From a virus: a stretch of DNA of 25,941 nucleotides. This document shows positions 3,001 to 25,699 of this stretch, in pieces. How positions within the stretch are numbered: the stretch's first letter is position 1; every line of letters begins with the position of its first letter. The position numbers and the translations under genes were made by a program. The stretch covers positions 1-25,941 of IMG/VR virus record IMGVR_UViG_3300044846_004664; one strand, given 5' to 3'. The notes beneath the pieces are model-generated. The model was not told the origin of the DNA. It did no database searches and saw only the letters and a program-made list of their open reading frames with translations.

Positions 3001-6000
3001 CTCTAGATTTACGGAAAGACTCAGCTGTTTTCTCAGCATCTGTAGCAACTAAGCCAAGTGATTGACCAAACCATTTTAATGCTTTCGCTATACCACCCGT
3101 TAAATCAATTCCAAAAGCTTTAAGACCAGCATTTACTATTTGATAAGCTGTAATAACTTGACCTAAAATGGGTACAAATCTACCAAAAAGTGGACCAACT
3201 TTTGATATTACTCCCAGTGTTCCACCAGCAAGACCAGCTAATCTTCCTCCTCCCGCTGCTCTAGCAGCAATTGTTCCAACAACTCCACCTCTTTGAGATA
3301 TAGCTTGAGCAGCAGTTCTCGCTCCAGCAGCATTTCTAGATCCCCTTGCTGAAGAGAAATCGTTTAATAGTATTTGAGACTCTGAAAGGGGTTCTGATTT
3401 TTGTTTTTGTTTAAAATCTGTTATTTCTCGCCAAGATAAAACACTACCTGCTATTTGCGAAACTGCATATGCGGCTTTTTCTAAACCATTATCAAGATCG
3501 CCAAATGCTGCCATCGCACCTGAAGTCACAGATTGAAGCAAGAATAATTTTCCAACATAATCAGAAGTTGTTTTTTCTTTATTTTTTGTGACTTCGGTTA
3601 ATGATGTATTAGCGGTTGTAGCAGCTTTTTCTGATTTTACGTAATCAAGACCAGCTTTCGCGACTGCTTCTTTTGAATTTTTTTCTAACTTAGAGACTTC
3701 TGTGAGTTTTCTAATTTGATCTTTTAAAGCTTTAGCTTCGCTAGCGATAGTTAAATCGATTTTTGCCAAATCTAAAGTCGCAACAAAATCATTAATGGCT
3801 TTATTTAGTCTTGTAAAGGAAACTGCTTGTCCTTTTGGTCCAGATAGAGCTGTTCCAGTTATATCAAATGGCGCAAAATTAGGTATAAATCCACCTGCTG
3901 CTCCATATGTTTTAGGATCTCTTCCTTCTCTAACTGCTCGATTAACACCTTGAAATCCACCACTTGGCTCATCACGACGATTTGCTACCATTAATCCCAT
4001 TGGATTGCTGGAGCTTTTTAGTCTTGGATTTTTGTCAATGTAAATTTGAGATGCTGGCACACCAGCCGCTATTTCACGACTAATAGCATCTTGCAGTGGA
4101 TTAGCAAAGTTTGGAATATAACCAGAAGCGGCACTACGCATCATGGCATTTCTTCTCATTTCTAATCTAACATCAGGATCATTAATGGATTTATCAATTA
4201 CACTTCTTAGTTCGGCAGTAGTAATTCTTCTTTTTGCATCCGCTTTGCCAACTCCTCCAATTTGACTGAAAAACAAGCTGTTGATTTTATCAGCTTGATA
4301 TTTGTTGGTCATATTGAAATCGAAAGCTTTATTTCTCATAGCTTCCCCTTCGTCAAAAGACTCCAAATCTTCTGCTTTTTTAGTATAAAGATTAATTGAA
4401 CTTTCAAATATATTTCCAAGAGCGTCACTTCCAAACAAATATTTATCTTTTAAATCTCCAGAACTGCTAATACCTCCCAATGAGCCAAATATATCATTTG
4501 CCAATACTCTAAGAGGTTCTGCAAAAAGAGAATTCACTCTTTGTTGGAAATCTTTTTGAACTTGTTCTGCGTTTAAATTTTTAATATTACCCAAACTATT
4601 TGTTTTAATATTGGTAAATTCAATAGCTAAATTTTTATCTCTTTCTGTGACACCAGCATTTTTTAAAATTTGAATTTGAGTGTCTTTTAATTTTTTTTCA
4701 GCCACTCTACTTGTAGACTCTTTTCCTGAGATACCAATCAAGCCCAAACCTTTACCTCCAGGTAAATTAAATTGAGAAGTATCAAATGACATTTTTGGCA
4801 CATCTTCTGCTGCTTTAGCTCTAGCCTTTTGTACCATTTTTACAATTTCTATTTGTCTTGTAGTATAAGCTAATTTTCCAGAGCCTCTAACTTTACCTTC
4901 GCTTTGCAAGATATTTTCAATGTCAACAGCTTTTTTGCTCTTGACGCTATTATAGTATTTTAAATCTTCTGGATTAAAACTATCAACAACTTCTTTTGGA
5001 AGAAGAGAAGCTTTCGCAAAATTGGGGATAAAACCTCCAGCTGCATTTATTTTTTGTGCGCCAGATGGCAAACCCATAGATTTTACCATATTTCTATTAA
5101 ATATGGCAGAACCCTTACCTGCGAAATTAGGCACAATATACTCTCCAGTATGAGCTACCATTGTGCCTCTTCTACCTCCACCAAAGTTGAAGTTAGGAAT
5201 CACAACTGGCTTGTCACCACTCCTTGCTCCACCGACTCCAGATTTAATAGCTTGACTTTCTTTCGCTACGGCTGGCACATATCCACCAGCACTATTACCA
5301 ACTCTCAATCCAGAAGAAGAAGCTCTACCTCCAACATTATACACCGCTGGAGCTAGTGAGCTTGCTGTCGCTGCTGTTTTTCTAATTATAGCTTCTTGCT
5401 GAATAAGGGCGCTGGTAATTACTTGTAACTGAGCAGCCCTATTACCCTCCAAAGCAAAAAGCTTTTGTTGCATATCTACATTGCGAGATAAAATCTGCTG
5501 GATGGACATTTCAACATTTTGAATTTCTTTAGCAGCTTTTCCAATTCCAAAGAAACTTTTTAAACTCGCAAAACCAAATTGAACCAAATCTTTAGAAAGT
5601 TTCAAAATGACAGCACCAAATAGCGCCAATCCTGGACCTGAAATTATAGCCGAAACTCCTTTCGCAAGACCCCTAAACAAACTACCTAAAGCGCTTTCTT
5701 CTCCTAGAATATTCTGAACACCTTCTAATAGACCATTAAAAAACGAAAGAATGTTTTTTAAGTTATCTGTAACACCAATTTCCCCAAGTGTATTGCCTAA
5801 CTCTTGTGCGCTAATAGTAACTTTGTTAATCAAAGATTCTAGCGTCATATTTAAAACCGCATTTTTCTCGTAAGCTTGTTCACCAACTTTTTCAAGTTTT
5901 TTAAGTGTATCTTGATATTTGGATGTTTCACTGCTCATATCTTGGATAGCTGCTAATAAATTAGAGAGCTGATAAACGCCGCCAAGTTTTTTTGCAATAT

Positions 6001-6922
6001 CAGCCTGTCTCAACTGAGAAAGAGAACCAAATGATGTCGCTAAATTTTGTAAAATAGCTGTTGCTGGCAAAGCTTTTTGCGTTGCAGTATCTTCGATAAC
6101 TACACCTAAAGCATCTAAATCCTTTAAAACTGCTCTATCTTGTAGTCTAGCAAAAATTGTTTTAAAACTGTTGCCAATAACAGCTCCACCTCGTGCTGTT
6201 TTTTCTTGAACTGCTGTAATAATAGCGATCAATTCATCAAGTGAAACCCCAGCTTGATTAGCTACAGAAGCAGATCTCTTGAGACCTTCAATCAAGTCTT
6301 TTTCAGAAACAGCAAACTTTTGAGAAACAACAACTAGTTTATTCAAGATTTCTGAAGTTGTCACTCCTGCGCTTGAAAATGAGTTATATGCGGCTGTTAA
6401 ACCCTCTACTGATTTTGCAGCATCTAGTCCCGAAAGTCTTGAAAGAATCAAAGCATCATTTAATCTTTTGATAGTTTCTGTTGCCCCCAAGCCTTGTCTC
6501 GCTAATTCTGTTGCAGCTTCAGCTACTTGATCAAAAGTTTGCCCAGTATTTTTTGCAACATCAAATAACTTGCCGCCAAATTTTTGCAATTCTGAGCTAC
6601 TAATATTGAGAACGCTATTAATATTAGCTAAGCTTTTTTCCACTTTGATTGTGGTTGTTACGATACCCGTTAAAGCTTTGGCTACTCCAGCCATAATACC
6701 AGCAGAAGCTCCGAACGCAAGAACACGAGCATTTGCCGCAGCCATGGATTTTGTAAATTCATCCGCTTGACCAGTGATTCTTCCAAGTGGTTGACTCAAG
6801 GAATTAATTTGGCGAGCATTTGACCCCAAATTAATTTGAGCAGATCCAGAAGCTTTTTTCATTGCTGCCTGAATACTCTGCTCAAGTCCTACTTGTGTTA
6901 CTGGTATTTGAATAGATTGCAT
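1..6922 (-). CDS. Tail tape measure protein, TP901-type (C-terminus beyond window)
   Basis: One uninterrupted minus-strand frame starts at the ATG at 6920-6922 and is still open at base 1, giving at least 2,307 residues. The first ~350 residues have the TP901-type tape-measure core pattern: alanine-rich helices, a stretch reading NINSVLNISSSELQKFGGKL, then TAARQG-like and GGAVIGNSFKTIFARLQDR segments. Hydrophobic stretches lie near residues 415-460 and 1195-1270. Long charged coiled coil fills about 1480-2170. A late GG-x-DDVPAML-GGEYVINK motif (about residues 2190-2215) is typical of tape-measure C-terminal regions. The protein sets tail length, fills the tail tube, and is probably ejected with the DNA. 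It follows three small tail genes, as usual. Short PNFA motifs recur at residues 576-1014. Family assignment is very secure; the full length is unknown. Confidence 0.95.
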   Translation of the reverse strand, partial: MQSIQIPVTQVGLEQSIQAAMKKASGSAQINLGSNARQINSLSQPLGRITGQADEFTKSMAAANARVLAFGASAGIMAGVAKALTGIVTTTIKVEKSLANINSVLNISSSELQKFGGKLFDVAKNTGQTFDQVAEAATELARQGLGATETIKRLNDALILSRLSGLDAAKSVEGLTAAYNSFSSAGVTTSEILNKLVVVSQKFAVSEKDLIEGLKRSASVANQAGVSLDELIAIITAVQEKTARGGAVIGNSFKTIFARLQDRAVLKDLDALGVVIEDTATQKALPATAILQNLATSFGSLSQLRQADIAKKLGGVYQLSNLLAAIQDMSSETSKYQDTLKKLEKVGEQAYEKNAVLNMTLESLINKVTISAQELGNTLGEIGVTDNLKNILSFFNGLLEGVQNILGEESALGSLFRGLAKGVSAIISGPGLALFGAVILKLSKDLVQFGFASLKSFFGIGKAAKEIQNVEMSIQQILSRNVDMQQKLFALEGNRAAQLQVITSALIQQEAIIRKTAATASSLAPAVYNVGGRASSSGLRVGNSAGGYVPAVAKESQAIKSGVGGARSGDKPVVIPNFNFGGGRRGTMVAHTGEYIVPNFAGKGSAIFNRNMVKSMGLPSGAQKINAAGGFIPNFAKASLLPKEVVDSFNPEDLKYYNSVKSKKAVDIENILQSEGKVRGSGKLAYTTRQIEIVKMVQKARAKAAEDVPKMSFDTSQFNLPGGKGLGLIGISGKESTSRVAEKKLKDTQIQILKNAGVTERDKNLAIEFTNIKTNSLGNIKNLNAEQVQKDFQQRVNSLFAEPLRVLANDIFGSLGGISSSGDLKDKYLFGSDALGNIFESSINLYTKKAEDLESFDEGEAMRNKAFDFNMTNKYQADKINSLFFSQIGGVGKADAKRRITTAELRSVIDKSINDPDVRLEMRRNAMMRSAASGYIPNFANPLQDAISREIAAGVPASQIYIDKNPRLKSSSNPMGLMVANRRDEPSGGFQGVNRAVREGRDPKTYGAAGGFIPNFAPFDITGTALSGPKGQAVSFTRLNKAINDFVATLDLAKIDLTIASEAKALKDQIRKLTEVSKLEKNSKEAVAKAGLDYVKSEKAATTANTSLTEVTKNKEKTTSDYVGKLFLLQSVTSGAMAAFGDLDNGLEKAAYAVSQIAGSVLSWREITDFKQKQKSEPLSESQILLNDFSSARGSRNAAGARTAAQAISQRGGVVGTIAARAAGGGRLAGLAGGTLGVISKVGPLFGRFVPILGQVITAYQIVNAGLKAFGIDLTGGIAKALKWFGQSLGLVATDAEKTAESFRKSREKAGEKILAGEFNKGFEISGTLNDKLTEARKKEIEKRIGSDAAAGADNEELRKKEFNKLIEGASFGINQKFMAERAGLTPEELQKQYTAGKGLQKKYREEIYSTSGEEFSSTFVDKFKGLSKPQAELLGMFEADLAGSYSSEESQKAFAKAKEQNLQGDQLQPFINDLFQSAYKNLEKAGKLDQVNQFKTALANAGDYTDPKELEELVKLFNQLTANIDKSAVVSKAIETANLNVLQKRLDASLAYQQSLFESTTSEEISLGIKRDMLGLSKLEKFEAESKLETIKLQKQATLEQAKASVDLLRNSEVLNARLDEVGLEQVSEKSFAAVAEISEEINRLILEQGGYTAEVESKAKSLLEYKLGEDKASESILAILKATNEPIQKNLELQKSNNAILNAQKASLEAIDFLEEKRRQSVSSYYENQSRSFDLSKRSKDIELEKFKIEKEKEKIGKNAAESLAIDKQIAEKETAVINAKLEFDKQAIINDLRKQFSDAALELGLNLESDIKGANKLEDFNAIASQITEAERKMNISRLDTSIMELSNSKTASDYFVERVSSAANYLSEKIFPASGIIDFAGKIVRRSSVSQYRPESSESKKLSEQINKLRQQKTEIENAPLPSNPLIEGSQNAFEELKLLGKEADNAKSSLENSLKSAGANLTTFGNLVANVFRDLADQITQNAFGLLSATDASSISASLIESEKFANLKAGPQTADTIKNAENRKALLIQELEVKKAITAEDRVSRQFELNQLVDILALKEEALAAETSEERLKILDKIIAKERERAPLVERLSAIISPTQEEKMMRLEDTLVSASKTFRDNMVDALTNAIDQGGSLADILRSAAYDYVKTINRENIGNIFDSALNVGKSGISSLFKQFASGGKVMGGSGTKDDVPAMLMGGEYVINKRAVQKYGPQFLEALNSGSLGGFAAGGSVQKGPQGNFYTPGTFGTGSIEGKRNLLDFATQSGTSGKFDRMTNIDGYQSIALEPESSRLSMMGMRS

Positions 6923-15811: not shown

Positions 15812-16696
15812 ATTAGTTTCTTTTTTGTTTTTTACATCATGATTTGACAAATGGGAAATAAAAGCTTTCATATTATTTGAAAAAGTGTTATTTTTTATGT
15901 CAAAATATAAAGTTGCATCTCTTTTGTCTTTAAAAGATATTTGATTAGAGCTTTTATTTTCAGAATAAAGACCCTTAACATCCGCAGCTGGTTTTGTTGT
16001 ATAACCAATGCCAAGAGGGTAAATATCGCCTTTAAGAAGTCTGAATAATCTAGTGCCATCTTTCATCGCTCCATTACCACCATAAGCTTTAAGCATTGGC
16101 TTCATTTCTTCAAAATGCTTAGGATTTGTAATAACTTCTGCTTCTTTTAAATCTCTACTACCAACAGCAATATCAAATTGAGAAAAGCCAATTTCCCAAC
16201 TTGCTGAAATAGCTTCGTGAAGATTATCTAATTCATCAACAGATCTTTCTATTAACTTAGCAAAGTCTTTATTGATCTGTTTATAAATAACAGCTCCAAG
16301 AGCAATGTTAAATGGGTCTTTCATTTCTCGCGCTTCATCAATCGAGATAATCCTATTAGACCCACCGTATTCACTAAATCCAGCTTTCACCAAATGACCG
16401 ACGATTTTTTCTTTTTGGTGTTCTATGTTAGTTGGTTTATGAATAAAATTATTGATAATTTTTGCGGCTAATTCTGCACTAATTCCATCGTCGTTTTTAT
16501 TAAATTGATTTACTACAGCACCGTTATATGCCACACCCATTAAGTCAATATTTTGAGAGTAATCGATATCGCTAGGCAATAAATCCTTTAAGTTTTTTAG
16601 CGAAGCTTGAGAAATGCTCATGTTGTCCTCATTTGAATATGACAAAATCGGGCAATCAAAAGTTGATGTGTATGGAAATTTTTTGTTAGTTTGCAT
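15119..16696 (-). CDS. Prohead protease fused to scaffold protein
   Basis: The protein has about 525 residues in two parts. Residues ~45-240 resemble a prohead serine protease: an NIEHQKEKIVGHLVKAGF segment with candidate catalytic His93, and AISASWEIGF with candidate Ser164 or Ser166, in the His-then-Ser order of the U9/S78-type enzymes. Residues ~295-525 are highly charged coiled coil (KKKDEEYRESLTKAEKEKEK and onward), typical of a core scaffold. A protease with a C-terminal scaffold is known from lambda gpC/Nu3. The ATG at 16696 overlaps the portal stop by 11 bases. An alternative ATG at 16621 has a good GAGGA Shine-Dalgarno sequence four bases before it, unusual in this window, so the true start is uncertain. 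The protease should cleave the scaffold and itself during head maturation. Confidence 0.8.
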   Translation of the reverse strand: MQTNKKFPYTSTFDCPILSYSNEDNMSISQASLKNLKDLLPSDIDYSQNIDLMGVAYNGAVVNQFNKNDDGISAELAAKIINNFIHKPTNIEHQKEKIVGHLVKAGFSEYGGSNRIISIDEAREMKDPFNIALGAVIYKQINKDFAKLIERSVDELDNLHEAISASWEIGFSQFDIAVGSRDLKEAEVITNPKHFEEMKPMLKAYGGNGAMKDGTRLFRLLKGDIYPLGIGYTTKPAADVKGLYSENKSSNQISFKDKRDATLYFDIKNNTFSNNMKAFISHLSNHDVKNKKETNMDIEQILAELKGLLVEKKFSEEAVANMTQTFAEAIKKKDEEYRESLTKAEKEKEKLAKEKEDMKASIEQVQDELKTAVEKIQAFENFKKEEEAVARFNSRMDSIDQTYELDDDDRKVLVSDLKALEPTDEAFASYQEKLAVMWKHKNKEAKAAFEKQIQARIDEEVAKKLNVSTASEEKKTDAELSQEALEKAEASKETLPNNNEHQSQTQPSLRDKFKTAFSKENIIIS

Positions 16697-18683
16697 TGAT
16701 CGAATGATAAAGTATGGCAGCTGAATAGTCGTCGTCAATTTCATATTCAGCAGCTGTTTCTAAAACGCTAGGCAAAGTATTTAATTGATTGATATTATCA
16801 AAGTTTTTTACACATGAAATAGCTACATCTTCCCAATTATTTATTTCATTTGATACAACAATAGATTCGCAAAGCTTATCTAGCATTGTTTTTTGGGAGT
16901 CACTCAACTCACTTAATGAGCATTCGATTTTCATCTGGTCTTCCAGCTTAGCTCTGACTTTCTCGATTTCCTTTGTAATACCCTGTATTTTCTTGACTGA
17001 AATATTTGCTTTCGTCAAAGGAATACCTGTAGTTCCTTCTGGTCTTCCAGGCGTTTTAGGAGTTTGATTTTGTTCGCCGCTATCAGGAGGAGATGGTGGA
17101 GAGATGGTTGGAATACCACCAACAATTGGATTATAGTAACCCTCTTTTCTTTGAGAAACAAATTCTGGTTGAGAAGTAGCAATTTCTTCAGATTTAGGAA
17201 ACTCGCCAGTGTGGAACATGTCCATTCCTTGTTGCGGGGTAATAATACCAAGCTCCATCAATCTAGTTGTTACTCGCATAAGTTGAGTCTTGTCTCTAAT
17301 ATCAATGTCGCGGAATTTTACAGTTGGATATTTTTTCATACCCAAGCTTCTAGCAACTCTTTTGATTTCTGGTTGAAGAAAATCGTTGACAAATGCATTT
17401 CTTGCTTCTTTAAGGCGATCCAAGAAAATCTCTGCTTTTACTTCTGTAGAGCTATACTTCTCTTCCCCAACAATAATATTTTGAAGACCTTGCTTGATGT
17501 CTTCATTAAGGACTTTATATTTTTCTGGTCCCAAAACTTTATTAAGATCAGGAATAACAAAGTCAGCTTTAGTTGTGTAATCCGAAACAAGAACTCTACC
17601 AACGCTTTCGTTCTTAAATAGCTTTTGCATCGCTACTAAGTTGTTTTGATTGATACCACCCTTGTCAGGCTCAGCTCCCATCGTAATCAATAAAATAACA
17701 TTCTCAACAGTTCTTGTGATAGCTTGATCCATTTTCTTTAATTCAAGCTTCGCGTTGATATCTTCTAGAACTGGATAGCCAAATGGAATAGCGAAAGGCT
17801 CGTAGTCTTGTTTCTTGTAAAAAACAAAGATAATTTTTTGTGGATCGAGTTTGATTTTTAATCCGTTTTGATAATAAGTTCCTTTTTCGATATCTTGCTG
17901 AACTTGTTGAGGCAAACCTCTAAGAATATCTCTATCTTCTTCAGATACTGGGTTCTGCAATCTCGCCAATTCATATTCCGAAAGAATCTTTTCGTATGCG
18001 CCTGTCTCAAAGCTAGATCCTCTTTTGGCAACAATATCAAAAGGGTTCAAAAGGATATATCTTACTGGCACTTTATTAGAAGTAGATTGTGTATCTGAAA
18101 TTTGCTGAATCAGTTTAGCATAGTCTCCTGCTTGAATTGTGCCATCGACGCGATAGAAAAAGATATTGCCACTTCTATAAAATTCTCTAAAGAACTGATC
18201 TTTTAAATGCCAAAGTTTAATTCTTTGAAACCACTGATCAAAGAAATCTCTACTTTTTCGAGAACCGCCTTCGAGATATACTTCCGTATTCGCAAATTCA
18301 GACATAATGTCAATAGAATTACGAAAAACAGCGACATTAGCATAAGCTTTTTGACAAAGTTCAATAGCCTCGCGCACGTTAACTCCATCCATTGCGTAGC
18401 TGTATGGCAAAAGTCCATTACGAATGCTGCTAAATCTATCATGTGTTCTTTGAAATGCGGATCTATTTTTTCTGCTGCCGCTTCTTGACGAACTATCGAC
18501 TCTAGAATACTCATCAGATGCTGAAGAAGTAAAGATGGACGCTTCTGAAACATAAAAAGGTTCACCAGCTAACTCTGGCTCAAATTCATTTACTTGTGAC
18601 GCTAAAGACACCTCCACTTTGGGCTTATTAAATTGCTGCCAATAATCTGATCTTTTGTTGTATTGTCTTTTGCTTTGATTCAT
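16686..18683 (-). CDS. Portal protein
   Basis: The 665-residue protein shows the portal pattern: an N-terminal region, then VREAIELCQKAYANVAVFRN (start of the conserved core), FFDQWFQRIKLWHLKDQFF and EFYRSGNIFFYRVDG. A stem/wing region follows with KMDQAITRTVENVILLITMG. It ends in a helical crown after a proline-rich linker (PTISPPSPPDSGEQNQTPKT, about 525-560). Portals form the dodecameric ring through which the terminase pumps DNA and to which the neck attaches. It lies between the large terminase and the protease-scaffold, the standard place; its last bases overlap the probable protease start. The ATG at 18683 is preceded by GTGTAATATAAAGAA, nearly the same as before PhoH. The helical C-terminal tail is acidic. 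Confidence 0.88.
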   Translation of the reverse strand: MNQSKRQYNKRSDYWQQFNKPKVEVSLASQVNEFEPELAGEPFYVSEASIFTSSASDEYSRVDSSSRSGSRKNRSAFQRTHDRFSSIRNGLLPYSYAMDGVNVREAIELCQKAYANVAVFRNSIDIMSEFANTEVYLEGGSRKSRDFFDQWFQRIKLWHLKDQFFREFYRSGNIFFYRVDGTIQAGDYAKLIQQISDTQSTSNKVPVRYILLNPFDIVAKRGSSFETGAYEKILSEYELARLQNPVSEEDRDILRGLPQQVQQDIEKGTYYQNGLKIKLDPQKIIFVFYKKQDYEPFAIPFGYPVLEDINAKLELKKMDQAITRTVENVILLITMGAEPDKGGINQNNLVAMQKLFKNESVGRVLVSDYTTKADFVIPDLNKVLGPEKYKVLNEDIKQGLQNIIVGEEKYSSTEVKAEIFLDRLKEARNAFVNDFLQPEIKRVARSLGMKKYPTVKFRDIDIRDKTQLMRVTTRLMELGIITPQQGMDMFHTGEFPKSEEIATSQPEFVSQRKEGYYNPIVGGIPTISPPSPPDSGEQNQTPKTPGRPEGTTGIPLTKANISVKKIQGITKEIEKVRAKLEDQMKIECSLSELSDSQKTMLDKLCESIVVSNEINNWEDVAISCVKNFDNINQLNTLPSVLETAAEYEIDDDYSAAILYHSINAN

Positions 18684-18726: not shown

Positions 18727-21700
18727 TTAATCAACAAACATTGGGACAAATGTTGCCTGAACATTATCAACTGGAGCAGCCATCATGTCAAGATATACAT
18801 TCATCATCCAGTTGCCAAGAACTAGTGCTGAATAAGAGTCTTTACGAGCTTTATCCGCATTTCTTTGTTTTTTGAGATTGGAAGGCAAATCGAAAGATTG
18901 TGATCCATTGGCAGTAGTCGATACCTGAATTAAAGCGCATTGAACTTTTGTAGTGTCTACTACGGTCTTCAAATGCTCAATCAAATCAATTTGCTTGGCA
19001 TAATTATCAACATCGTCGTTGTATCTTGAGAAAGAAATTTCTTCAATAGGAATTGCCGCCGCTTTTTGTCTAGTATAATCATCATCCAAAGCAGCTCCAG
19101 CAAACCATATACGCTTGTGGTCGAAAGCGGCTTGCAGCATTTCATTCGCGGCTCTAATCCATTGTGAACTAGGCTTACGTAATATACAAATTCTGCGAGA
19201 TTCTTTATTATATTGGTTTCTTGCATAACGCAAGTCATTTGCGTATTCTTGGGGGTTATCGAAATCAACATCGATTGTTTCTATTTTGATTCCAGCCTTT
19301 TTAAATATTTCGCTTTCGTTGCAAGAGTTGATAAATTGGACACCTCCGTTATAGTCACCAACAATTGAAACAATATTAAAGTGAGTATAAAGATAGTGAA
19401 AGTAGATAATATGCTTCTTTAGATTTGCCCCCGCCAGCGCATACGAGTGAACAATTGTTCCTTGTTTTTTGTCTGGACGCAATTTAATAACGTGCATAGC
19501 GAAGTCATCAGAACCTTCACTCTCAGACCAAGATGGGTCGAAAGAAAGAATATATTCAGCATTTTTATCGCCAACGACTTCTACAGCTTGACCTTCTCCG
19601 TCTGGCACTGTACACGCTGCCATTTTACTGACTTTGAAATAGCCAGAGCTATCATCTGTAAATACAGAACCAAACTCTCTCTCAAACTGAGCTTCACTCA
19701 TTGTAGCTTTAGATTGATCAAGTAGGTTTTGATCGTAAAGTTGTTTTGGGGCGCAATCATAACTCAAATGCATAATAACTCGATGAGCATTATCAGTTTG
19801 CGAAGGATTAAGTATTAAGTTTTCGTATTGCTGGTAAAGTTTATACAAATACTCAAATTTATAAGAAGCAGATGACAAACCAATAATCTTATTGTGAGAC
19901 CATCTATGACGATCTTCTTCTGTCATTTTACCAGCAGCAATCATTTCTGTTTCTAGATCATAGATCTTTTGTCTCTCTGTTGGGTTTTCAACTACCGCCA
20001 AGAAAGGCAAGATAACCTCATTGATGATTTTTTCAGGCATCAAAAGCAACTCGTCAATAATCATTCGTTGAAAACGAAATCCCCGAAGCTTTTCTCCATC
20101 TCCCAGTGGCAGAGCTATAATTTTACTTCTCCCTAGTTCCATTACCCATTGGTCATTTGATTTTGAAACTCGCGTAATACACTGAGACAAAAATGCAGCC
20201 TTTGGACTCTTGGCGATTTCTTCAATCTTGTTAAAGATCATTCGGCTTTGTCTGAAAGACTTTGAAATAATACCTATCTGCACTCCTTGGTTTAGAATAG
20301 CGTCCATTGCCGCGAAAATGCCCGTAGTGAACGACTTGGAGAGTCCGCGAGAATTGTGGTGAACTAAACCATTGCCAATGTAACACTCTTCATTTTCGAC
20401 AGTAATATCAACCGTTTCAACTAAACATGGAGATATCGTTTTGATTTGAGAAAAAACTACTCGTTCTTCTTGGATGTCTTCGATGATTTGCTGGGTCTCA
20501 TAAGATAGGTTATTTAAGTTTTGCAATTCATTTTGTGAAAAACTTTTACCCCAAGAGCCATTTTTGCCAATGAGTTTTTTACGAGAACCTTCTTTTTTGA
20601 GAATAGATGTAAAATCTGGAATCAAATTATTTTGATAGTTTCGGATGCTTGATCTCTCAATGATTTTTTTTAAGTTCTCTTTCTTGTGGTAGACCACGAA
20701 ATCAATTGACTTTTGAAATTCTCTCAGAGATGTTTCGTCATTAGAGATGATCAAATCATAATACGGGACATCTTTGTGCTGACCTGATTGTCTCAGATTA
20801 GACTGTATTCCCATGTTGTTTAAAATCATTTTAACTTGTCTCAGTAGCTCAAGCGATGTGTTTTTCAAACCAACCTTACTATTGCTCTTCCGAAAAGAAG
20901 CGTAGCCATCAGCGTCAAATAATCCACCAATCAGTGCGCATAATTCATTTCTAGAACACTGTAACAAGCTGTCACAAATAACTTTGTTCTTTGATTTTAA
21001 AGACATGTCCCAACCAATGCTAGCTAACCATAAAGAAAGTTTTCTGCTAAATAGAGAATACTCGTAAAAGCTCAAGTTCTCACTTCTTTGACGAGAATAT
21101 ACTTTTACTTCTGTTTCTTTAATGAAATTCATACACATGTCTTGAATTTCCCTATTTTCTGAGCAATAATGAATACCATCTTGGTTAACCCACCCATCAC
21201 CTAAAACATAGCCTAGAAGATAAAACAGATATGGAGAACGCACTAATTCAGAGCCTTCTGTAATATCTCTATTACCCCAAACTTCTGTTTTGATTTTGAC
21301 TGGCAGGTAGTCGTTGATAGATAGATCTTGGATCTCCTTAAAGATAAATTGCCCATCTTTATAAGTCATTACTTTATGACCAAGTTTAGCTTTAAAAGAT
21401 TCGCCCGATTTAGTTTGAATATATAATCCTTCTTCTTGTGGGTTTTCTTTTTTATCAGATACCAAGTTTAATTCGTCTCTTGACCTAACCATGTCCCCAA
21501 CAGAGATATCTTTGATTTTCTTAAAACCTTTAGAAGACAATACGTATTCGTTTTTTTCTAAACACCAAATGCCCAAGAAGTAATCCGTCTCCATCATTGA
21601 CTTAATAGCCATATGCTGGAATGGGAATAGAGATACTCCAGATAATAACTCACAAGTGAACGATGGGTTTTCTCGTAAGAATTTATAAAGCAGTATTTTT

Positions 21701-21798
21701 GCCTTCTCTTCTTCCAAAAATCCTTTAGTTGCCAAAATCTCTTGATTGATATTAGCAAACTTTTTGTATAGTTTTTGATGTCCTTCTTCCCAAGCCAT
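18727..21798 (-). CDS. terL: Terminase large subunit interrupted by an intein
   Basis: The precursor has 1,023 residues. After removing an intein (79-482), a 619-residue two-domain terminase remains. ATPase: adenine-motif region FPFQHMAIKSMM; Walker A SRGLSKSFT (483-491), which starts at the splice junction and has Ser instead of Gly before the Lys; Walker B MIIDE (579-583); coupling motif GLSSASY (640-646). RNase H-like nuclease: candidate acids D754 (FDPSW), D815 (GDYNGG) and D987 (KDSYSALVLGNW). The enzyme cuts concatemeric DNA and drives it into the head through the portal. It starts two bases after the upstream nuclease gene and is followed by portal. Without splicing, the P-loop would be split from the rest of the ATPase and the motor would be dead. 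Confidence 0.95.
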   Translation of the reverse strand: MAWEEGHQKLYKKFANINQEILATKGFLEEEKAKILLYKFLRENPSFTCELLSGVSLFPFQHMAIKSMMETDYFLGIWCLEKNEYVLSSKGFKKIKDISVGDMVRSRDELNLVSDKKENPQEEGLYIQTKSGESFKAKLGHKVMTYKDGQFIFKEIQDLSINDYLPVKIKTEVWGNRDITEGSELVRSPYLFYLLGYVLGDGWVNQDGIHYCSENREIQDMCMNFIKETEVKVYSRQRSENLSFYEYSLFSRKLSLWLASIGWDMSLKSKNKVICDSLLQCSRNELCALIGGLFDADGYASFRKSNSKVGLKNTSLELLRQVKMILNNMGIQSNLRQSGQHKDVPYYDLIISNDETSLREFQKSIDFVVYHKKENLKKIIERSSIRNYQNNLIPDFTSILKKEGSRKKLIGKNGSWGKSFSQNELQNLNNLSYETQQIIEDIQEERVVFSQIKTISPCLVETVDITVENEECYIGNGLVHHNSRGLSKSFTTGIFAAMDAILNQGVQIGIISKSFRQSRMIFNKIEEIAKSPKAAFLSQCITRVSKSNDQWVMELGRSKIIALPLGDGEKLRGFRFQRMIIDELLLMPEKIINEVILPFLAVVENPTERQKIYDLETEMIAAGKMTEEDRHRWSHNKIIGLSSASYKFEYLYKLYQQYENLILNPSQTDNAHRVIMHLSYDCAPKQLYDQNLLDQSKATMSEAQFEREFGSVFTDDSSGYFKVSKMAACTVPDGEGQAVEVVGDKNAEYILSFDPSWSESEGSDDFAMHVIKLRPDKKQGTIVHSYALAGANLKKHIIYFHYLYTHFNIVSIVGDYNGGVQFINSCNESEIFKKAGIKIETIDVDFDNPQEYANDLRYARNQYNKESRRICILRKPSSQWIRAANEMLQAAFDHKRIWFAGAALDDDYTRQKAAAIPIEEISFSRYNDDVDNYAKQIDLIEHLKTVVDTTKVQCALIQVSTTANGSQSFDLPSNLKKQRNADKARKDSYSALVLGNWMMNVYLDMMAAPVDNVQATFVPMFVD
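20353..21564 (-). mobile_element. LAGLIDADG intein in terminase P-loop
   Basis: This 404-residue insert begins with Cys1 (CLEKNEYVLSSKGFKKIKDI, block A) and ends in GNGLVHHN, with Ser as the +1 residue. Block B has KLGH (His63) where TxxH is usual. Block F is VDITVENEECY, with Cys394 in the place often held by His. Both homing-endonuclease motifs are intact: LLGYVLGDG (Asp123) and LIGGLFDADG (Asp219), so the DNA-cleaving domain looks active. The intein splices itself out of the terminase and can copy itself into intein-free terminase genes. The boundaries are set by the Cys1 and Asn/Ser junctions and restore a continuous YFLGIW-SRGLSKS. Confidence 0.93.
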
Positions 21799-21800
21799 AT

Positions 21801-22733
21801 TTATTTAATTTCAAAGTAATTCATTTCTCCAATGTCCAAAAAGTATTGAACATCTACATTCCACATTTTTTTGCCTAACATTAATAGCTTTGGAATCAAA
21901 ATTTGACTAGAGCTTCGATTTCCAGAGAAAACAAATTGACAACAATCGCGAAAATCATGCTGCAATTGACGCATGTTATGGAATATATAGTCGATATTGT
22001 ATCTCTTAGGCGCATATTTGTTCACTTCTCTCATTGTGTAGAGATTTGCCTCTACGACAATAAACAAAAAAGATTCTGATTGGCGGCATCTTTGAAGCTC
22101 TCTATAAAACCTCTTATATTCTGTGGAGACTGTATTGCAAAAATCAGGTAAAGACTTTCTGTCTACATAGGTGTATTGAAAATCTTGACCGCTCACCGCA
22201 TAATCGCCAATGTCGAGCTTTAGTGGTTTAGAGTTTCTGAATTTTAGCGGTTGACGCTCCCTTGTATCAATTAAGATATTTACATTTCTGTAATCATTAT
22301 GAAATTCTTTGGGTAAATTTGAGCCGAATAGTGGCTTTACACCACATAACTCGCAAGCTGCACGATAACTGCCAAAAACCCTCTTGTAAACGCGCATTGG
22401 CGGCAATTCAGAAGTGAACAACTCAACGGAGCTTGGTCCATAATCGATTTCTTTTTTCTGAATGCGCTTTTTAAGCAAAGAAAGAATATACTCCTTAACT
22501 TCTTCTTGATCTGCTACGTCACACCATTCGACTAATTGATTATAGGATGCGAAATCCCTTTCAAAATAGTCTTCATAGTTTTTGAATTCAATTAGATTGC
22601 CCGAAAGTTTATTTTTTCTGGCAAAATGCTTAACATAATAATCCCCCAAAATCATATCGTGTTTTTTGATATGATGATGGAGACTTCTTAATGAGGAAAA
22701 ATCTTCCCCGCATTCTTTACAGTTAAATGACAT
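21801..22733 (-). CDS. C2H2 zinc finger - HNE repeat - ERCC4-type nuclease
   Basis: The 310-residue protein has three recognisable parts. Residues 5-25 form a classical zinc finger, C5-x2-C8-x12-H21-x3-H25. Residues ~98-134 (SSVELFTSELPPMRVYKRVF, then GSYRAACELCGVKP) match the small DNA-binding repeats associated with homing endonucleases. Residues ~152-290 are an ERCC4/XPF-type nuclease: IDTRE (155-159), GDY (176-178) and DRKSLPD (191-197), where the family consensus is ERKxxxD. The ATG at 22733, overlapping the upstream stop by 11 bases, is preferred over an upstream TTG because the zinc finger begins there. It ends two bases before terL. It probably cuts branched or specific DNA; whether it serves packaging, recombination or homing cannot be decided here. 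Confidence 0.85.
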   Translation of the reverse strand: MSFNCKECGEDFSSLRSLHHHIKKHDMILGDYYVKHFARKNKLSGNLIEFKNYEDYFERDFASYNQLVEWCDVADQEEVKEYILSLLKKRIQKKEIDYGPSSVELFTSELPPMRVYKRVFGSYRAACELCGVKPLFGSNLPKEFHNDYRNVNILIDTRERQPLKFRNSKPLKLDIGDYAVSGQDFQYTYVDRKSLPDFCNTVSTEYKRFYRELQRCRQSESFLFIVVEANLYTMREVNKYAPKRYNIDYIFHNMRQLQHDFRDCCQFVFSGNRSSSQILIPKLLMLGKKMWNVDVQYFLDIGEMNYFEIK

Positions 22734-23775
22734 GATCTTTTGAAATTCCAAGTATACGAGCTTTCCAAGCATCCATTCCCTCAAGCCTGTTTGCTTCGTC
22801 TGCCACGAGTTGTTTTTGCATTTCTGCGATTTTCACCATATTAGCTCTTTCTTCTTCGTCTTGAAAGAATTGAACCAAAGCCAAAATAGATGCATTTTCT
22901 TTTTGTTTACTCTGCATACGAGAAGCCCTATCTCCTTGAAGCTTTTTTGTCAGGTTTTCGATTCTCGTTTCACATTGATGATATTCTGAGCTTTTTGCCT
23001 TAATGATTTCGGACAATCGAACACTCATATCTTCTTGATCATTAGCAACGTCAAATACATCATTCAACTTATTCAAGTGTTTGCTGATAACCTCTAGATT
23101 GATGATTTCTTTACATACGTTCATGTAAAGGTTGATTTCGTCTGATGTGAGATCGGGTTTATCCCAAGTCAATCTAATAAATTCTTGCTCAAACAATTCG
23201 CGATCACCTTTCACAGTGTAATTGTTCATGATTTTAACGAATCGAGAATTATTCAAATTAACCATGAGCTTTTCGATACACACCCTATGTTGCCGATTAA
23301 TCTTCTCCTCCTCAAATGCTTGACCAGTTGCATCATTTACTTTTTTAAGCGCCCTCCCGAAAGACTTCGGGGCAACATAGGTTGAGATGTTTGCATCTAC
23401 ATCCTCAGATGGGTTGTAGTCTGGATTGATATCCTTGATAATGGCATGGACTGCTCGTTGCTCAAGAGAAAGAGGTTTCACCTCTTTCTTCGGGAATATC
23501 AATGATGCAATAGCCAATGACGATAGACCAAGTTCTGCTTGATCTAAAATCAATTGCTTTTGTTCTTCAGTGAAAACTAATTCTTCTTTTTTGGCGCGGC
23601 GAGAAGTATTAAATTTCATACCTGCGCCAACCATATAGTTGCGAATTTCGCGCCCTTCTTTTGAACGACCGTCTAGTTCTGGATTGTCAAATACATAACG
23701 AACAATCTCATTCAAATCGGGGCTTTTTGCAAAAGCCTCTCTTACCTTTTGTTTTTGTGCGTCAGTTAAATTCAT
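22723..23775 (-). CDS. Helix-turn-helix protein, candidate small terminase
   Basis: The 350-residue helical protein has an N-terminal part with repeated helix-turn-helix-like segments (LTDAQKQKVREAFAKSPDLN; FTEEQKQLILDQAELGLSSL). It has a long charged coiled coil in about residues 240-335 (VRLSEIIKAKSSEYHQCETR onwards). DNA-binding domain, oligomerising coil and a place just upstream of the terminase large subunit (one gene between) are what a small terminase (TerS), which recognises the phage DNA for packaging, would show. It is longer than usual (about 150-200 residues), and no TerS-specific motif was recognised. The ATG overlaps the sigma-factor stop (ATGA), so translation is coupled. Confidence 0.7.
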   Translation of the reverse strand: MNLTDAQKQKVREAFAKSPDLNEIVRYVFDNPELDGRSKEGREIRNYMVGAGMKFNTSRRAKKEELVFTEEQKQLILDQAELGLSSLAIASLIFPKKEVKPLSLEQRAVHAIIKDINPDYNPSEDVDANISTYVAPKSFGRALKKVNDATGQAFEEEKINRQHRVCIEKLMVNLNNSRFVKIMNNYTVKGDRELFEQEFIRLTWDKPDLTSDEINLYMNVCKEIINLEVISKHLNKLNDVFDVANDQEDMSVRLSEIIKAKSSEYHQCETRIENLTKKLQGDRASRMQSKQKENASILALVQFFQDEEERANMVKIAEMQKQLVADEANRLEGMDAWKARILGISKDHVI

Positions 23776-24464
23776 AAGATAATGTCGTTTTTTTCAATAA
23801 TGCTTTGGACTTTTTCTTTTAGCATTTTTTTGATATTTTTGATTTGTTTATATCCTGCTGCTCGATTTTTTTCTGTTGTTTTGAACTTCATGAATTTTGC
23901 AACATCATCATCAGTTGCGTTTTCAAAAAATAACATCATGTACACGGTATAGTGTTCTTGAGACAGTTCTTTTTTAAGAAGTTCGTTGAGCTTATTGATA
24001 GAGTTTGTAAAGTCTACGCCAGAATCTGTGAATGTGTCTATCTCTTGTTGATGGTTCTCCATTGCCAAAGGCATCTTAACGCCATAGCCTTGTCGTTTTG
24101 ATTTCGCCCATTTTGCATATTCTTTGCAAGAGGAGTCTTGCTCTTTAGATTTAGTTAGCGAACAAATATTGTCGCCCATGTTATATGGACAACTCATACA
24201 AGGTTTAACATAGTTTGTGTAATTGTTGCGCACTATGTTTTTAATCTGATGTGAAGCTATTCGTGAGACCCAAGGCTCAAGTGGTCTAGTTTGATCCCAC
24301 ATGTGCCACTTTTTAAAGATATGAGTCTTAATAACTTGAGCCACATCTTCAAAGTCGAACCAATTAATAGCGTTGAGTCTCCACTTGCTCTGAAATTTTG
24401 AAACAACAGAATCAATTATCGGATAGCATTCCTCGTATGTTTTGTTTTTCTCCTCTTGATTCAC
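23772..24464 (-). CDS. Phage sigma factor with Cys4 insertion
   Basis: The 230-residue protein has sigma-70-type region 2 at about residues 35-82 (DFEDVAQVIKTHIFKKWHMW, then RIASHQIKNIVRNN). Region 4 is a helix-turn-helix at about residues 170-220 (NATDDDVAKFMKFKTTEKNR). It should direct host RNA polymerase to phage promoters, probably those of the late genes around it, like T4 gp55. Between the two regions lies an insertion with C89-x2-C92-x8-C101-x11-C113, a probable zinc-binding knuckle that common ECF sigmas lack. The start is GTG, overlapping the upstream TGA (GTGA). It is coupled to the zinc-ribbon gene before it and to the HTH gene after it. Confidence 0.85.
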   Translation of the reverse strand: MNQEEKNKTYEECYPIIDSVVSKFQSKWRLNAINWFDFEDVAQVIKTHIFKKWHMWDQTRPLEPWVSRIASHQIKNIVRNNYTNYVKPCMSCPYNMGDNICSLTKSKEQDSSCKEYAKWAKSKRQGYGVKMPLAMENHQQEIDTFTDSGVDFTNSINKLNELLKKELSQEHYTVYMMLFFENATDDDVAKFMKFKTTEKNRAAGYKQIKNIKKMLKEKVQSIIEKNDIIL

Positions 24465-24967: not shown

Positions 24968-25699
24968 TTACACGTGAATGTTGTGGCTCTCTAGCTTTTT
25001 AACCAAAAAGCGGAGAATTTCACTGCGCACAATATCTTCATTTGTGAATGCGAAGGTTTGAATGCCGCGATTTTTACTCTCTTCATCGTTAAAGAGATTA
25101 AACATTGGAGAGAAGCCTGTTTTGGCGTGTCCAATATCACTTTGCATAGAGTCTCCGCAGATAATAATTTTAGATCCTTCTCCAATTCTAGTAATTAAAG
25201 TGGTCAGTTCCTTAAAGGAAAAGTTTTGCGATTCGTCAGCAATAACAATCTTATTACTCCAACTTGCACCACGCAAAAAGTTAATTGGCACTGCACTTAA
25301 TCTTCCTGTTGATTTAAGATGCGCCACATCTTGCGGCACAGCTATTTCTTCAAGCTTATCGTATAGTGGCATCAAAAATGGATCAAACTTTTCCGCGATA
25401 TCTCCTGGCAAACTGCCCAATCCCTTGTCTGCGCTTTCGATAATACTGCGGACATAGATCAATTGTTTTTCGGGGTCTTCAGACATCATCTGAATCGCGG
25501 CGTAAAGAGCCATATAAGTTTTACTGGTTCCTGCTGCCCCTGAGATGAAAATTAGTTTATTTTCGGGGTTAAGTAGTATATCCAACAACAAAACTTGTTT
25601 TGGCGTGAATTTAAAACCCTTTTTTTTGATTTTAATTCTGCTGGTTTGATTGAGTTCAATTTCAACAGAATCCGACTTGCTAAATCTTTTTTTAGGCAT
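24968..25699 (-). CDS. phoH: PhoH-like P-loop ATPase
   Basis: The 243-residue protein carries a complete PhoH-type NTPase: Walker A GAAGTSKT (54-61), RSIIESADKGLGSLPGD (84-100), Walker B IVIADESQN (151-159) and GDSMQSDIG (182-190). A basic N-terminal tail and short C-terminus surround it. PhoH proteins are ATP-binding, probably RNA-processing helicase-like enzymes and very common in marine and other phages; their role in infection is unsettled. It precedes the late transcription/packaging operon by a 120-base spacer and follows the end of another minus-strand gene by 20 bases. The ATG at 25699 is preceded by GTGTAA-TATATAGAA. Confidence 0.95.
   Translation of the reverse strand: MPKKRFSKSDSVEIELNQTSRIKIKKKGFKFTPKQVLLLDILLNPENKLIFISGAAGTSKTYMALYAAIQMMSEDPEKQLIYVRSIIESADKGLGSLPGDIAEKFDPFLMPLYDKLEEIAVPQDVAHLKSTGRLSAVPINFLRGASWSNKIVIADESQNFSFKELTTLITRIGEGSKIIICGDSMQSDIGHAKTGFSPMFNLFNDEESKNRGIQTFAFTNEDIVRSEILRFLVKKLESHNIHV

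Follow-up and report, generated by a model that had tools for sequence, protein, structure and literature searches.

Nucleases of the ERCC4 fold are best known from DNA repair in eukaryotes and archaea. Examples include archaeal Hef and XPF, Mus81, and XPF–ERCC1 (PF02732). XPF/Mus81 enzymes grip branched DNA with a (HhH)2 domain, and, to our knowledge, ERCC4 enzymes of known activity recognize the structure of their substrate, not its sequence. ERCC4-type nucleases also occur in tailed viruses of Halorubrum (Hafunaviridae), where they are stand-alone proteins of ~150 aa. As far as we know, the removal of DNA branches before or during genome packaging has been well studied in phage T4 only. Herein, endonuclease VII (gp49) binds the portal, and the purified protein frees motors stalled on Y-DNA (PMC9958956, PMC3485210). 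In HK97, gp74 stimulates cos cleavage by the large terminase TerL (PMC9410871), and HNH proteins are described as widespread in packaging machines (Kala 2014, as cited in PMC9410871).

The nuclease described here belongs to a lineage of uncultured tailed aquatic phages and lies in a window of 25,941 nucleotides, which is the whole stretch of DNA that was analyzed (IMG/VR record IMGVR_UViG_3300044846_004664). The ERCC4-type nuclease gene encodes 310 aa on the minus strand (21801..22733), with its ATG at 22733 and its stop codon ending at 21801, and is matched by Pfam and PHROG profiles; the plus-strand frame over the same interval contains many stops. Its start overlaps the 3′ end of the gene of a 350-aa protein (22723..23775, minus strand) by 11 bases, and two bases separate its stop from the ATG of terL (21798). 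The start is backed by the conserved N terminus MSFxCKEC, as the 35 aligned relatives begin alike. The motifs of the nuclease are GSYRAACELCGVKP (residues 121–134), IDTRE (155–159), GDY (176–178), and DRKSLPD (191–197). Gene boundaries, overlap, and gap had all been read correctly from the letters, though with no strand stated, and each of the proposed elements, namely C5-C8-H21-H25, the repeat, and the IDTRE/GDY/DRKSLPD motifs, is found in the translated protein.

The C-terminal part of the protein, approximately residues 152–291 (21861..22280, minus strand), is an ERCC4/XPF nuclease domain with the catalytic residues D156, D177, D191, R192, K193, and D197. Pfam ERCC4 (PF02732) matches the window protein at E=6e-9 with 36.3 bits, over the curated cut-off of 24, and the PHROG "ERCC4-type nuclease" matches at E=1.5e-11. 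All 35 aligned relatives give an ERCC4 match at E<=0.1. Across 136 distinct relatives D156, R158, G176, D177, Y178, R192, K193, and D197 are invariant; 135 have Asp at position 191, and the remaining one has Glu. The GDxnERKx3D active site, with Asp for Glu in ERK, and the IDxRE motif are thus essentially invariant. The AlphaFold model, calculated from the alignment of 35 relatives, has a pLDDT of 91 and a pTM of 0.84. Foldseek matches it to Pyrococcus Hef (1j24, E=1e-5) and DNA-bound Aeropyrum XPF (2bgw, E=6e-5), with Mus81 and XPF–ERCC1 ranking after these; the Hef/XPF-type matches span E 1e-5 to 1e-4 with a TM of ~0.5–0.6 of the target, and ERCC4 proteins of viruses match as well. Profile search and fold therefore both uphold the ERCC4 domain suspected by the sequence-only reading. 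The protein scores far under the Hef and Xpf equivalog cut-offs and is filed as an ERCC4-domain nuclease rather than as an XPF or Hef orthologue.

Two modules precede this domain. The first is a C2H2 zinc finger (residues 5–25 with C5, C8, H21, and H25; 22659..22721, minus strand), found with zf-C2H2_4 at E=4.7e-4. In the window protein alone this score lies under the curated cut-off, yet the four zinc ligands are conserved in at least 135 of the 136 distinct relatives, and the finger stands as proposed. The second is an HNE-type (PF18780) helix-turn-helix repeat at approximately residues 80–132 (22338..22496, minus strand), the helices of which are present in the model. PF18780 matches the window protein at E=0.019, under the curated cut-off, and passes it in the relative L074 over residues 80–132 (27.7 bits versus 26), which substantiates the suspected repeat. 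A genome scan placed the best PF18780 match of seven out of eight large related genomes inside the ERCC4 gene. The repeat is here a DNA-binding module of a resident gene and no mark of mobility; the DNA-binding roles of both modules are putative. Residues 1–65, which contain the finger, gave no match in the phage collection, and an origin of the finger region from phage homing genes was rejected.

With Hef, XPF, and Mus81 enzymes the phage protein has in common the ERCC4 fold and the GDY...(D/E)RKxxxD active site. It differs from them by the added N-terminal C2H2 finger and HNE repeat and, in nearly all phage members, by an ERK motif that starts with Asp rather than Glu. In addition, it has neither a helicase domain nor a C-terminal (HhH)2 domain: Pfam gives no match to either, and the nuclease domain extends to the C terminus in both the Pfam match and the model. 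The Hafunaviridae nucleases are 29–42% identical over the nuclease domain but contain neither finger nor HNE repeat and have no annotated terminase gene within the displayed 4–6 kb on either side. The small genes that precede ERCC4 in the haloviruses were considered as a split-off N terminus and rejected, with no finger or HNE repeat visible by eye. Both elements are also absent, by eye, from stand-alone ERCC4 proteins of bacterial MAGs and Halorubrum viruses (~110–220 aa). Hence, among the proteins examined, the combination of finger, HNE repeat, and ERCC4 domain seems to be confined to this phage lineage. The annotated phages of INPHARED are without this protein, the only matches being haloviral nuclease domains.

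The packaging nucleases differ in fold. T4 gp49 has an unrelated His-Me finger fold (PF02945), and its likeness to the ERCC4 protein would lie in the proposed role of removing DNA branches that stall packaging. A likeness is likewise proposed to HK97 gp74 and other HNH packaging proteins as nucleases acting with TerL in packaging, but these have the HNH fold with a different active site. Homing proteins with HNE repeats (HNH_repeat, PF18780) have one repeat copy in common with the phage nuclease, which exceeds the cut-off in relatives. Unlike homing endonucleases, the nuclease has no detectable LAGLIDADG, HNH, or GIY-YIG domain, the ERCC4 domain, finger, and HNE repeat being all that was detected, and its gene is not mobile.

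The neighboring genes form a conserved block on the minus strand. It begins with a PhoH-like ATPase (24968..25699; PF02562, E=1e-47) and continues with a zinc ribbon, a sigma-70-like factor (23772..24464; Sigma70_r2 E=1.4e-4, NCBIfam sigma E=4e-6), the 350-aa protein, the ERCC4 nuclease, terL (18727..21798), and a 665-aa protein (16686..18683). This order is found in all 13 loci displayed, with PhoH undetected in two of them (L058 and L061). The sigma-70-like factor is possibly a late-gene sigma. The 665-aa protein is a candidate portal by its conserved position and weak matches (PHROG portal E=0.07, Pfam Portal_Mu E=0.11). terL encodes a large terminase of 1023 aa, intein included, recognized by Pfam and PHROG, which retains its own acidic nuclease motifs. 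The ERCC4 enzyme is thus not simply substituting for cutting by TerL.

The 350-aa protein, conserved upstream of the nuclease, is all-helical and contains an invariant WDKPDLTxDE motif. By position only, it is a candidate small terminase; it was rejected as a recognized one, since families, PDB sequences, and fold give no match. The nearest TerLs of cultured phages (Slashvirus, Microcystis phage MaeS, SPbeta-like, and L47-like phages) are 22–27% identical. In the records of these phages that were examined, a protein of 287–343 aa lies right before terL, none of which is annotated as a nuclease. When profiles were compared, the 350-aa protein showed no significant match to the proteins that precede terL in Bacillus phage Stills/Microcystis phage MaeS or in the SPbeta-like/L47 group.

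The placement of the nuclease gene was determined in relatives fetched separately by nuclease and by terL, including two wider terL searches reaching down to ~52% TerL identity. Loci obtained with the nuclease query cannot reveal absence of the gene, whereas loci obtained with terL can. After removal of duplicates, 158 distinct terL junctions of related uncultured phages were available, and the nuclease lies directly before terL in 155 of them. Herein, 149 show an overlap of <=60 bases or a gap of <=100, and six overlap terL by 89–101 bases; the commonest spacings are overlaps of 38 or 4 bases and a distance of 2 bases. In one of the three exceptions (L211, 3071-4058), a short duplication (MTSDKH...), which may be natural or an assembly fault, disrupts the ERCC4 frame. 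In the second (L249), a free-standing LAGLIDADG gene (5367-6008) has inserted precisely where the ERCC4 gene borders on a terL that has no intein, so that the boundary of nuclease and terL is a target of real homing genes. In the third (L250), an FkbM-type methyltransferase gene (5-760) directly precedes terL at the contig edge, and save for this case none of the 158 junctions presents an empty site of the nuclease gene. L288, considered as a further exception, was discarded as an intein artefact.

The intein predicted in the neighboring terL is likewise real. It is a LAGLIDADG intein of 404 aa at terL residues 79–482 in the Walker A motif (20353..21564, minus strand), matched by Pfam LAGLIDADG_3 and Intein_splicing, and its site is empty in the relative L002. 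Two intein sites exist in the Walker A motif of terL, W|SRG in the window and SRGxSK|S in L035, L036, and L043, and the inteins at the two sites are only ~27% identical. In the pair of window and L002, the 12 bases after the insertion point are recoded synonymously (TCTCGCGGACTC versus AGCAGGGGGTTA), possibly a trace of co-conversion.

Presence of the nuclease is independent of this intein. In the first sets of relatives, every terL locus with enough upstream sequence has the nuclease, intein or not. It accompanies intein-bearing terL genes (e.g., L003, L006, L016, and L028) as well as intein-free ones, which are the majority (L005, L011, L038, L041, L052, and many more). L002 shares 98.8% DNA identity with the window over ~4 kb and encodes an identical nuclease protein next to its intein-free terL. 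Moreover, over 84 loci the protein distances of the nuclease correlate with those of TerL at r 0.94, with those of the portal at 0.965, and with those of the 350-aa protein at 0.96, compared with at most 0.13 for permuted distances. The nuclease gene is a resident one that is vertically inherited with the packaging motor and is not mobile.

A single IMG/VR scan contained 424 related stretches. In one genome, G001 (133,831 bp), the two ends are identical over 95 bp, for which reason it is probably a complete circular contig. Its gene order is largely like that of G002 (139,990 bp) with different break points, a pattern that circular permutation or terminal redundancy would produce. The proteins of G001 include a pol III alpha, a DnaB-like helicase, an SSB, a primase, a UvsX-like recombinase, and a PD-(D/E)XK exonuclease; recombinase, SSB, and exonuclease make recombination-made branched concatemers plausible. 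These replication and recombination genes are grouped ~40 kb from the nuclease locus. Three of eight large relatives contain a RuvB-like AAA+ protein (L177:205-1107, G001:60205; NCBIfam RuvB E=5e-25, RuvB_C over the Pfam cut-off), which PHROGs prefers as a clamp loader. In seven of the eight, a conserved 135-aa protein adjoins uvsX (L180:1063-1470, G001:121063); it resembles homing/HNH PHROGs and, by eye, a Vsr-like nuclease, and could be an alternative resolvase. RuvC, RusA, and endonuclease VII were not found in the relatives by a search that also missed ERCC4 in five of the eight genomes having it. The idea of the ERCC4 enzyme as sole resolvase is weakened by these false negatives and by the 135-aa candidate.

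Given its ERCC4 fold and complete active site, its constant position ahead of terL, and an inheritance shared with the motor genes and independent of the intein, the protein is most likely a resident structure-specific ERCC4 nuclease of the terminase operon that debranches concatemers for packaging; we assign this reading a probability of slightly above one half (~0.52). Branched DNA as the substrate is suggested by the ERCC4 fold family, and the timing and the coupling to packaging by the operon. Recombination-driven replication would yield branched concatemers, on which the finger and the HNE helix-turn-helix may anchor the enzyme, either by gripping duplex DNA or by holding it close to the site where packaging begins. 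The ERCC4 domain would then remove flaps, Y-forks, and Holliday-type junctions from the concatemer, so that the packaging motor could run without stalling. The nuclease may contact TerL or the portal herein. The absence of (HhH)2 from the window protein is a point against branched DNA as the substrate, and the position in the operon could reflect late co-expression only. The sequence-only reading had offered, as one of two options, a nuclease dedicated to packaging or to concatemers with branches; fold, terL linkage, and co-inheritance make it the best-supported one, the role itself remaining a probable one.

The main alternative, possible though doubtful, is a packaging cofactor that recognizes sequence in the manner of HK97 gp74. 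Finger and helix-turn-helix would read a site, and the ERCC4 domain, by itself or together with TerL, would nick or cut there and so initiate or terminate packaging. The position in the terminase operon and two DNA-binding modules that could confer sequence specificity speak for this, as does the precedent of gp74 and the HNH proteins. Against it stand the structure-directed recognition of characterized ERCC4 enzymes, the nuclease motifs kept by TerL, and the genome ends, as the matching 95-bp ends of G001 and the permutation of G001 against G002 do not suggest a fixed cos end. Unlikely as well is a general recombination or repair nuclease that processes flaps or Holliday junctions during replication and has no link to the motor, being placed in the late operon for co-expression. 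The ERCC4 fold would suit such an enzyme, as would UvsX, SSB, and the RuvB-like or clamp-loader AAA+ protein of the relatives, but the replication and recombination genes of G001 sit together far from the locus, and the nuclease gene stays in the terminase operon at 155 of 158 junctions, with TerLs down to ~52% identical. It is improbable that the protein acts as a fixed third terminase subunit, in which a finger/HNE-guided ERCC4 nuclease, travelling with the motor, would both select phage DNA and debranch it during translocation and would thereby unite in a single enzyme the jobs of small terminase, T4 gp49, and HK97 gp74. The other option of the sequence-only reading, a free-standing homing enzyme of ERCC4 fold with a link to the terL intein, has in its favor the HNE repeat, the intein of some members, and the other homing gene at the same spot in L249, but is refuted to the point of being barely credible by the fixed rather than patchy presence with and without intein (the outcome that the sequence-only reading had itself named as speaking against homing), the identical protein in L002, the co-inheritance with TerL and portal, and the lack of an empty site other than at the contig edge.

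The gene is real, conserved, and non-mobile, and the open-access PMC literature searched yielded no account of any ERCC4 nuclease with a fixed place among terminase genes. As this resident gene shows, HNE repeats are no proof of mobility. A large group of aquatic phages seems to meet the debranching problem of T4 with a repair-type fold wired to the motor gene. If true, this would provide a direct case, open to testing, for a dedicated branch cutter as a requirement of packaging, as well as a compact ERCC4 enzyme that works without a fused helicase or (HhH)2 domain.
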